Positions 4,406 through 59,174 of a stretch of 60,930 nucleotides of DNA are shown here, in pieces; positions within the stretch are counted from its first letter, which is position 1; every line of letters starts with the position of its first letter. The notes beneath the pieces were generated by a model. The model saw only the letters and a program-made list of their open reading frames with translations, searched no databases and was not told where the DNA came from. Origin of the DNA: Candidatus Zixiibacteriota bacterium (GTDB lineage Bacteria; Zixibacteria; MSB-5A5; GN15; FEB-12); NCBI GenBank assembly GCA_024278935.1, contig JAJRSF010000034.1, forward strand, positions 1 to 60,930, in the 5' to 3' direction. A program made the position numbers and the translations under genes.

Positions 4406-5374
4406 ATGATAGAGAAGAAAGTGTCCAATATGATTTTACTTACAGCAATAATTTTTATGTTTTCATTTTTGTTTGCGTCGTGTGGCGATGACAACCCGGT
4501 TAAACCTCCTCCTGATCCTGTTGCTGAAGGATTAAGTTCGGTTGCCGGTGATCATATTAAAGCAGTGATGGGTGCCACAGTTGATATCGAATTTGTTGCA
4601 GTTGATTCGGCACTTGTACCTGCTGTAAATAATTGGGTGCATTTTTCTGCTTTGGTAGGTGATGGGTCGTTAGTAAATGATTCAGTCAAGACTGATACTT
4701 TGGGCAAGGCGGTTGGGCAGTACTCATTTGATGGTACACTCGGGCATGCACAAGTGCAGGCTTTCATCAGAGATGCCGACACAGTTGCCGTTTCTGTTCG
4801 TGCCGATGCCCTGATAACGGGAGCAACCGGACAAGGGCAGTATGTTTTGCTTACTGATACGTATGCTGACATAAAAGATTATAATGGAACACCTGAACGA
4901 ATTGATATACATCCAGATTTGTGGATTTTAATTGCCGTATATGAAAACCTCAAAGGATTGGTTTTTGTACTTGATGATGTAAACAGAAACGAAGTCTTAT
5001 CAGATACTGCGACAATTTTAGAGCTTATTGTAAATTCTGTTTATACAGGTAAAACAAAAGATTCGCTTGGAATCGGTTCAACTTTGAGTGAGGTCTTTGC
5101 TGTTTATACTGATTCGACCGTTGCGTTTGATCCAACATCTCCTCCTGCTTATTATTATGAATATCCAGCTCAGGGTATCACTTTTTGGACAGATACAGCT
5201 ACTGTTGAGACCAATCGAGTAGTTTTTGAAATTCATCTGACTAAAAATATTGTTGTTCCTCCTGTCGCAAAACAGCAAGGAACTATCTCAGGGAGTAAGG
5301 CAGTTGAGGCGAATTCTGGTTATAAATTTATAGGAACTAATTATTACAAACTTGACACTCATTTTGAAAATTGA
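4406..5374 (+). CDS. Lipoprotein with Ig-like domain
   Basis: The 322-residue product has a lipoprotein signal ending FLFASC, so Cys26 is the predicted lipidated residue, followed by a GDDNPVKPPPDP linker. The segment of about residues 40-130 (GLSSVAGDHIKAVMGATVDIEF, split here for description: valine-rich strands and repeated GxxxD turns) resembles bacterial Ig-like (Big) beta-sandwich domains. The C-terminal 190 residues are unassigned beta-rich sequence. It is probably anchored on the outer membrane facing the periplasm or outside. The start is supported by AAAGG seven bases upstream. Function unknown. Confidence 0.55.
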   Translation: MIEKKVSNMILLTAIIFMFSFLFASCGDDNPVKPPPDPVAEGLSSVAGDHIKAVMGATVDIEFVAVDSALVPAVNNWVHFSALVGDGSLVNDSVKTDTLGKAVGQYSFDGTLGHAQVQAFIRDADTVAVSVRADALITGATGQGQYVLLTDTYADIKDYNGTPERIDIHPDLWILIAVYENLKGLVFVLDDVNRNEVLSDTATILELIVNSVYTGKTKDSLGIGSTLSEVFAVYTDSTVAFDPTSPPAYYYEYPAQGITFWTDTATVETNRVVFEIHLTKNIVVPPVAKQQGTISGSKAVEANSGYKFIGTNYYKLDTHFEN

Positions 5375-57606: not shown

Positions 57607-57630
57607 GTAAAATTACTATATATTTTGTAG

Positions 57631-57662
57631 AGGTCAAAACCATCAAGGTTTTGACCTTTTTC
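57631..57662 (+). terminator. Rho-independent terminator after fpr
   Basis: An 11-bp perfect stem AGGTCAAAACC / GGTTTTGACCT (57631-57641, 57647-57657) with an ATCAA loop and TTTTTCC after it. Confidence 0.92.
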
Positions 57663-57692
57663 CTTTTATAATTGATTTCCAACCATTGGTTG

Positions 57693-57816
57693 TTCCCCTC
57701 TTTTAAGAGGGGATTAAGGGGTGTTTTTGTTTTTATAAAATGATTGATTTGTAGGGAACAGGCTTGCCTGTTCCGCAATAGTTACGTAGGTCAGGTCTTT
57801 TAAGAGGCCTGACTTT
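57693..57816. repeat. Cluster of three short dispersed hairpin repeats
   Basis: Three palindromes follow one another: CCCCTCTTTTAAGAGGGG (57695-57712) leading into ATTAAGGGGTG; GGAACAGGC / GCCTGTTCC (57755-57763, 57766-57774); and GTAGGTCAGGTC...GGCCTGAC (57786-57812) with TTTT after. The first two types are common intergenic repeats in many genomes. No gene lies in this gap (57607-57829). Confidence 0.75.
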
Positions 57817-57829
57817 TGTATGATAACAG

Positions 57830-58285
57830 CTAACCTTTAATCGGTTGTGTATAAACAATATTATGCTCTAAATAAAATTTGAGTAATGTCAATGCTTCGC
57901 CCCATCCTGCTGCACAGTCAAGTATGCTTGCTATGCCTTCATCAGAATTTTGGTAGCCGAACTCTTTTAAGTGAATCGTAGTACCCCCGAATTCAGAAGT
58001 CAGGCTAAACTCAACCGTAGAAATCATCTTTTCGCCCCACTCAAAGACAAACTTGTTTGGATAGTCACATACTACTACGGTACATGGTACTTCAGCTGTG
58101 TAAAAATCAGGCCCCCAATTTTCCCACCTGAACCACATCTTACCACTTATTTTGAGGTCGATTTCAAGCCCTGTAGTGAAAAAAGCATTCCAACAGTCAG
58201 GCGATGTGATCGCTTTGTAGACCTCACCAATTGGAAGTTTGATAAATGTTTTATGGCTGATAATGTTTTTAATAATACTAACCAT
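57830..58285 (-). CDS. SRPBCC / AHSA1-like domain protein
   Basis: A 151-residue protein with the helix-grip fold: HKTFIKLPIGEVYKAITSPDCWNAFFTTG at the N-terminus (given in part), KMWFRWENWGPDFY, FVFEWGEKMISTVEFSLTSEFGGTTIHLKEFGY (in part) and a C-terminal helix WGEALTLLKFYLEHN. The pattern matches the activator-of-Hsp90/START-like superfamily, which binds small hydrophobic ligands. Function of this member unknown. No operon partner; it is divergent from the small RNA gene. Confidence 0.82.
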   Translation of the reverse strand: MVSIIKNIISHKTFIKLPIGEVYKAITSPDCWNAFFTTGLEIDLKISGKMWFRWENWGPDFYTAEVPCTVVVCDYPNKFVFEWGEKMISTVEFSLTSEFGGTTIHLKEFGYQNSDEGIASILDCAAGWGEALTLLKFYLEHNIVYTQPIKG

Positions 58286-58381
58286 ATTACTCTCCTATAC
58301 TTATTATACGTTGTAAGTGCAGTGTGTATTTGCTTCTATAAATTGTATTAGATTTTATGAGAAAAAGTGATAAGAATTGTC

Positions 58382-58411
58382 TTGACAGAATAGAAAATAT
58401 GCCGATATTAT
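58382..58411 (+). promoter_or_regulatory. Promoter of the small RNA
   Basis: Perfect TTGACA (58382-58387) and TATTAT (58406-58411) with 18 bp between, placing the transcription start near 58417, at the base of the RNA's first stem. Confidence 0.8.
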
Positions 58412-58416
58412 TAATG

Positions 58417-58548
58417 AAAGAACCGTCATTGGGACTCGCCCTTATAAAGCAATGCGATCCCGCCACCTTAAGTGACAAGGAAGACGGCCAACTTTCCTAT
58501 TAAATGTATTTCAGCCTCTTTGAATGAGTCAGAGAGGCTGTTTTTATT
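58417..58548 (+). ncRNA. Structured small RNA with three-way junction, family unknown
   Basis: About 130 nt between a consensus promoter and a strong terminator, without an open frame or ribosome site. P1: GAAAG (58416-58420) with CTTTC (58492-58496) and CCGTC (58423-58427) with GACGG (58483-58487). P2: GGGA + TCGC (58431-58439) with GCGA + TCCC (58454-58461). P3: CCTT (58466-58469) with AAGG (58477-58480). It fits none of the riboswitch or housekeeping RNA consensus I know (TPP, SAM, cobalamin, c-di-GMP-I, purine, SRP, 6S). It may be a trans-acting RNA or a terminating riboswitch for the downstream DUF3592 gene. Confidence 0.65.
58512..58548 (+). terminator. Terminator of the small RNA
   Basis: CAGCCTCT (58512-58519) pairs with AGAGGCTG (58533-58540) followed by TTTTTATT. 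Spacing of about 15 nt from the end of P1 would suit a riboswitch expression platform. Confidence 0.85.
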
Positions 58549-58613
58549 GCAGTAAGAATTGAAGGTACATTTAGACCAAGTATATCTTTCTTGTTGTGTT
58601 TTATCTCTGCCGT

Positions 58614-59174
58614 ATGTATTCTGATGCCATCATGATTTTAAGTATAATAGCAGTTTCAATCAGCATAGCTTTGGCTATACGCTATCTCATTATTGGTAAA
58701 AAAGCATATCAGATAAACCGACTTTTGTTGATTGTCTGTGCGATTGCTTTACCGATAGGTTCATATCTTATTATATTTCAATCAACCGTATTGCTTACAC
58801 ATATTGAATCTATGGAATTCCCGTCGGTGGTTGGGGTAGTGGTTAAGTCCGAAATTGTCGGGAGCGAAAGAGCCTTCCGACCATCGGTAACATATGAGTA
58901 TCAAATCGATTCTGTGAAATATTCTAAAACGACTTCGATGCAGTCCCCAATGTTTGGTAATAAACGTAAGCAGCATGATGTCGCCCGCGTCACAACAGAG
59001 TTGTATCATGTTGGTAAGGAAGTGGAAGTTTTGTACAACCCGGACGACCCATCGGAAGCAAATCTGCCACACTCTTTGGCCTGGAATGTCTATGGGCAGA
59101 TCGGATTCGGAGCAGTCTTGCTTATGATTTCGATCGTTGGTCTGCTTTTTCCACGTAAAAAATCTTTTCTCTAA
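58614..59174 (+). CDS. DUF3592-like membrane protein
   Basis: A 186-residue protein (from ATG 58614) with membrane helices at about 6-22, 33-54 and a C-terminal helix at about 160-180 followed by PRKKSFL. Between the helices lies the DUF3592 domain: VVGVVVKSEIVG, SVTYEYQIDSVKYSKTT, and GKEVEVLYNPDDPSEANLP with the characteristic YNPxxP. Function unknown. The start is uncertain: GTG 58596, ATG 58614 or ATG 58632 are all possible and none has a clear ribosome site. Confidence 0.75.
   Translation: MYSDAIMILSIIAVSISIALAIRYLIIGKKAYQINRLLLIVCAIALPIGSYLIIFQSTVLLTHIESMEFPSVVGVVVKSEIVGSERAFRPSVTYEYQIDSVKYSKTTSMQSPMFGNKRKQHDVARVTTELYHVGKEVEVLYNPDDPSEANLPHSLAWNVYGQIGFGAVLLMISIVGLLFPRKKSFL

Follow-up and report, generated by a model that had tools for sequence, protein, structure and literature searches.

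The window, by which we mean the whole 60,930-nucleotide stretch of DNA analysed, is one entire contig of a draft genome that totals 3.4 Mb and is split into 68 contigs, and the contig end falls within a 16S rRNA gene. On its forward strand, between an oxidoreductase gene and a gene encoding a DUF3592 protein, a promoter is followed by a branched set of helices and an intrinsic terminator (Table 1). The initial annotation read this arrangement as an uncharacterised structured RNA gene with a promoter, a three-way junction and a terminator, a description borne out by covariation among homologues and by the lack of any Rfam match, and we regard the locus as almost certainly a real new structured RNA gene. 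The DUF3592 gene lies 3′ of the RNA on the same strand, as had been noted. The gene slot between the oxidoreductase gene and the RNA (57609–58381) is exchanged among close relatives, holding an AHSA1-like gene in the window, a gene for a large unrelated protein in G002 and one for a shorter homologue of that protein in G003.

Table 1 Features of the RNA gene and its downstream neighbour, in window coordinates
Feature	Position	Strand	Remarks
−35 hexamer TTGACA	58382..58387	+	Exact TTGACA upstream of 34/36 homologous copies
−10 hexamer GATATT, spacer 16	58404..58409	+	TTGACA-16/17-GATATT in 22/36 copies
Predicted transcript, ~130 nt	58416..58548	+	Predicted from promoter and terminator; start ~7 nt after the −10 hexamer, end in the terminator T run
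P1 5′ strand GAAAG	58416..58420	+	Pairs with 58492–58496 CUUUC; covarying; pair 7:125 (A8 columns), p 1.3e-6
P2 5′ strand CCGUC	58423..58427	+	Pairs with 58483–58487 GACGG; closes the junction; covaries
P3 hairpin GGGA(c)uCGC / GCG(a)UCCC	58431..58461	+	Covarying; loop length and sequence vary between genera
P4 hairpin GCCAC-CUUAA-GUGAC	58462..58476	+	Most conserved element; family form GYCRC N5 GYGRC
P2 3′ strand (58483–58487) and P1 3′ strand (58492–58496)	58483..58496	+	Covariation
A/U-rich single-stranded linker	58497..58511	+	AARUUU-like motif in many relatives
Intrinsic terminator	58512..58548	+	12-bp stem 58512–58540; T-rich tail 58541–58548
Neighbouring DUF3592 gene	58596..59174	+	PF12158, E 2.6e-10; outside the RNA, synteny in some relatives

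The window RNA folds with a minimum free energy of −40.4 kcal/mol, compared with −27.1 ± 3.5 kcal/mol for shuffled sequences (z −3.84; 0 of 200 shuffles as good). Two homologues from the same genus give z scores of −3.50 and −3.67, and all three same-genus copies fold alike. In the fold scored on 36 copies, P1 leads through an internal loop to P2, the closing helix of a three-way junction whose other arms, P3 and P4, are directly adjacent. The three-way junction proposed at the start stands, and the helices first labelled P1–P3 are better described as P1 plus a junction of P2, P3 and a fourth helix, P4. An A at position 58477, right after P4, is conserved.

Plain nucleotide searching recovered only two further copies, both in the same genus (81% and 85% identity), in which conservation spans the region from the −35 box to the terminator. 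Covariance models reached further: R1, built from the three same-genus copies, found copies in other genera, and R2 and R3, built from 12 and 31 sequences, found more across the phylum. Once matches lacking a promoter and terminator had been removed, homologues were counted in 36 of 132 Zixiibacteriota genomes (phylum taken from record titles) belonging to three families, with 31 carriers among 54 genomes of the window's family (f1), 4 of 7 in f2, 0 of 4 in f3 and 1 of 15 in f4; in searches over 40 genomes, scoring covered only some of the candidates (33–109 per genome), so that absences are soft and the patchy distribution is partly a product of this sampling. The removed matches were weak ones in G121, G062, G067, G011 and G020. 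The window's own genome contains a second weak match (G000:C67, E 0.18). Two genomes of one genus (G029 and G040) carry a second, diverged copy in tandem (L066:5196-5278 + 5001-5092 and L073:4815-4897 + 5001-5092), each copy with its own promoter and terminator. When 84,980 species genomes were scanned with a promoter-anchored pattern, 17 stretches matched; the only two assignable to other phyla, in Oscillochloris (L045) and CSSED10-310 (L046), were rejected by model R3, leaving no accepted homologue outside the phylum. A short pattern scan of viruses gave no match.

Across the whole region, promoter matches (11, versus 10.2 in shuffled sequence) and terminator matches (2, versus 1.7) occur at chance level, and single-sequence signals of this type are consequently weak evidence. 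The case for an RNA family rests instead on comparison, namely on the same promoter–fold–terminator layout in 36 copies and on covariation. Because promoter and terminator were left out of the covariance models, their presence provides an independent check. An exact TTGACA lies within 60 bases upstream of 34 of the 36 copies, compared with 1.75% in shuffled upstream sequence, and a terminator-like hairpin with a T run lies directly downstream of 34, compared with 5%; the last two copies also have hairpins with T runs, as judged by eye. The strong terminator claimed for the window, with its 12-bp stem and T run, thus has counterparts in nearly all relatives, where the hairpin is kept though its sequence differs.

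The promoter required partial revision. In the window, TTGACA and TATTAT (58406–58411) form a sigma-70-type promoter with an 18-bp spacer and 11 of 12 matches, and this was the promoter originally proposed. TTGACA is upheld by the homologues, but they point to GATATT, which TATTAT overlaps, as the likelier −10 hexamer, with a spacer of 16 nt in 11 copies and 17 nt in another 11 (n = 36). Conservation of GATATT as the −10 element places the predicted start at about position 58416, at the foot of P1, where it had been expected.

Covariation among homologues, whose absence the initial annotation had named as grounds for giving up its proposal, is present in all four helices. In a model-fitted alignment with 36 copies scored, compensatory change is seen at 17 of 23 pairs, and none of 500 shuffles attained the values observed; 91.3% of cells at paired positions are paired, compared with 37–46% when partners are slid. 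As a model-fitted alignment favours its own structure, we also counted pairs in an alignment made from sequence only, in which 78.2% were paired, compared with 37–49%. A tree-aware test, run with a script that we wrote along the lines of R-scape, against a null in which substitutions are re-dealt along a FastTree tree, returned 5 of 20 pairs at E <0.05, with at least one in each helix. The RNA accordingly has the conserved fold with covariation beyond phylogeny that is looked for in a stand-alone structured RNA gene.

The individual helices differ in how they vary. P1, GAAAG/CUUUC in the window, is often GUAAGG/CCUUAC elsewhere, and in P2 a G-C pair has become A-U in G002. In P4, columns 90, 92, 94, 100 and 102 are invariant among the 36 copies and pair 93:101 covaries between A-U and G-C; the most constrained letters lie on the P3–P4 side of the junction. 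The second P4 pair is C-G in 18 of 38 rows, U-A in 5 and non-standard, mostly a C-A mismatch, in 15; a C-A step is tolerated here within an otherwise nearly invariant stem. The P3 and P4 loops are variable in sequence, and no strongly conserved unpaired stretch was found in the core. We also considered a loop–receptor pseudoknot between CCUU in the P3 loop (58440–58443) and AAGG in a junction strand (58478–58481), which is invariant in the genus, gone in other genera and hence unsupported. A hammerhead-like CUGAUG string in a few copies is unconserved and lacks a GAAA core, as judged by eye.

We compared the RNA with known families. At gathering thresholds, Rfam 15 places no family at the RNA, either in the window copy or in its relatives, and permissive searches gave chance-level matches only (E up to 10 for the window copy; E up to 1 for relatives, including divergent copies). 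The first reading, that the RNA resembled no known riboswitch or housekeeping family, is consistent with these searches. The Zixiibacteriota RNA is smaller than the raiA motif (ModT RNA) and, in contrast to it, is a simple four-helix fold seen in one phylum only and without an Rfam match. Common to both is a conserved noncoding RNA whose structure is key to its function; the raiA motif is an orphan stand-alone structured bacterial RNA in which structure is a key part of function (PMC11706538). Like 6S RNA (RF00013), the window RNA is a small stand-alone RNA that has a promoter and a terminator to itself. However, 6S RNA forms one long hairpin interrupted by a central bubble, whereas the window RNA is a branched three-way junction without a 6S match in Rfam. 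RF00013 was found in 0 of 31 relatives by a search that was positive in 5 of 14 controls; a search for 6S-Flavo was uninformative, the controls being equally silent. Small bacterial signal recognition particle (SRP) RNA (RF00169) is similar in size and single-copy, but the SRP RNA of this genome sits elsewhere (G000:C38:243766-243865), excluding that identity. The string GGGA...UCCCGCCAC served as a lead only, on what we take to be a superficial likeness to the central part of B12 riboswitches; no cobalamin family matches (E up to 10 for the window copy and 1 for relatives), and the downstream genes are varied. None of the relevant openly licensed literature searched in PubMed Central describes an RNA of this type from Zixibacteria. 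The RNA family is new; its kind, the stand-alone structured small RNA gene, is already known.

The initial annotation had allowed for either a stand-alone regulatory RNA or a riboswitch, and the genomic setting of the copies separates the two. A riboswitch or attenuator controlling the downstream gene in cis, here the DUF3592 gene, is suggested by the layout of the window, where the terminator shortly precedes a gene on the same strand, and at 8 of 35 loci a DUF3592-cluster gene (BLAST cluster 1) is adjacent to the RNA or close by. Yet at 34 loci where the next gene was counted from reading frames of at least 100 amino acids, its orientation matches that of the RNA in 19 and opposes it in 15, and the same-strand genes come from unrelated families. 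Neighbouring products include DUF3592, an EamA transporter, an epimerase, a dockerin protein, glycosyltransferase-like membrane proteins, PAP2 and an alanine-racemase-like protein, and an rRNA operon lies 3′ of the RNA in genera g1 and g30. The copies therefore do not form the 5′ leaders, on the same strand and before a recurrent gene function, that a riboswitch or attenuator would, and by eye the three same-genus copies show no conserved alternative pairing between core and terminator. The DUF3592 neighbour is local synteny rather than a regulatory pairing, and control in cis is very unlikely. Variation of the next gene in family and strand, with a terminator of its own at nearly every copy, argues for a stand-alone RNA gene; of the two original alternatives this one holds and the riboswitch falls away. 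An RNA acting in trans from a gene of its own is, in our assessment, highly probable.

We weighed two further readings. An RNA of the CsrB/RsmY type would titrate CsrA, which is present in 19 of 21 genomes, the window's included. Its GGA motifs, however, are not enriched (1.69 per copy versus 1.83 in shuffled sequence) and mostly touch helices (44, versus 17 unpaired), and as the several unpaired GGA motifs of a CsrA-sequestering RNA are missing we rejected this very improbable reading. Least probable of all is that the transcript is the messenger of a small protein. Two of the three same-genus copies, those of the window and of G003, keep the 34-codon frame ATGCCGATA...TAA open, but an insertion shifts it in G002, its ATG lies upstream of the predicted transcript start and, by eye, changes have no third-position bias. 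Any frame is open through the short core in only 21 of the 36 copies, and the conservation is accounted for by covariation.

Our preferred reading, to which we assign a probability of roughly 0.6, is that the RNA is a stand-alone small structured RNA acting in trans and that it most likely pairs up with a protein to make a small ribonucleoprotein. Its own housekeeping-type promoter would yield a transcript of about 130 nt, whose action would depend on a protein recognising the rigid junction around GYCRC N5 GYGRC-A rather than on Hfq-assisted base pairing. Hfq (PF17209) was found in 0 of 31 Zixibacteria genomes and in 5 of 14 controls, so the RNA does not appear to be an Hfq-dependent small RNA; this apparent absence favours action in trans by way of the junction, probably with a protein bound. 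The constrained P3–P4 junction, the variable loops and the lack of a conserved unpaired stretch likewise fit a protein that recognises shape more readily than they fit a pairing seed. For protein binding through the junction as opposed to antisense pairing, our support is tentative, at somewhat short of even odds.

The main rival remains an antisense role through the linker. An Hfq-independent small RNA could pair with mRNAs through its AARUUU-like linker or a loop, the junction serving only to stabilise it. Such a role would agree with a stand-alone gene with promoter and terminator and with the occurrence of AA[AG]TTT in 15 of 36 linkers, compared with 2.3 expected, although this mildly conserved motif could possibly be either a pairing or a protein site. 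Against it, conservation peaks in the junction, the P3 and P4 loops vary in sequence, no unpaired stretch of the core is strongly conserved and Hfq was not found, and we consider antisense pairing rather unlikely. Improbable is a role as a lineage-specific global regulator, in which the RNA, in a phylum where neither RF00013 nor Hfq was detected, would bind RNA polymerase, the ribosome or another central protein and take the part that 6S or another general RNA plays elsewhere. The site just upstream of an rRNA operon in two genera fits such a regulator without showing it.

Judged by sequence comparison, the window RNA is the founding member of a new Zixiibacteriota RNA family. In the openly licensed PubMed Central papers searched, we found no small RNA described for the phylum, and this work adds to an uncultured lineage a well-supported RNA family together with a ready covariance model. 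The conserved junction provides a defined bait for the partner of the RNA, in bacteria in which neither Hfq nor 6S RNA was detected.
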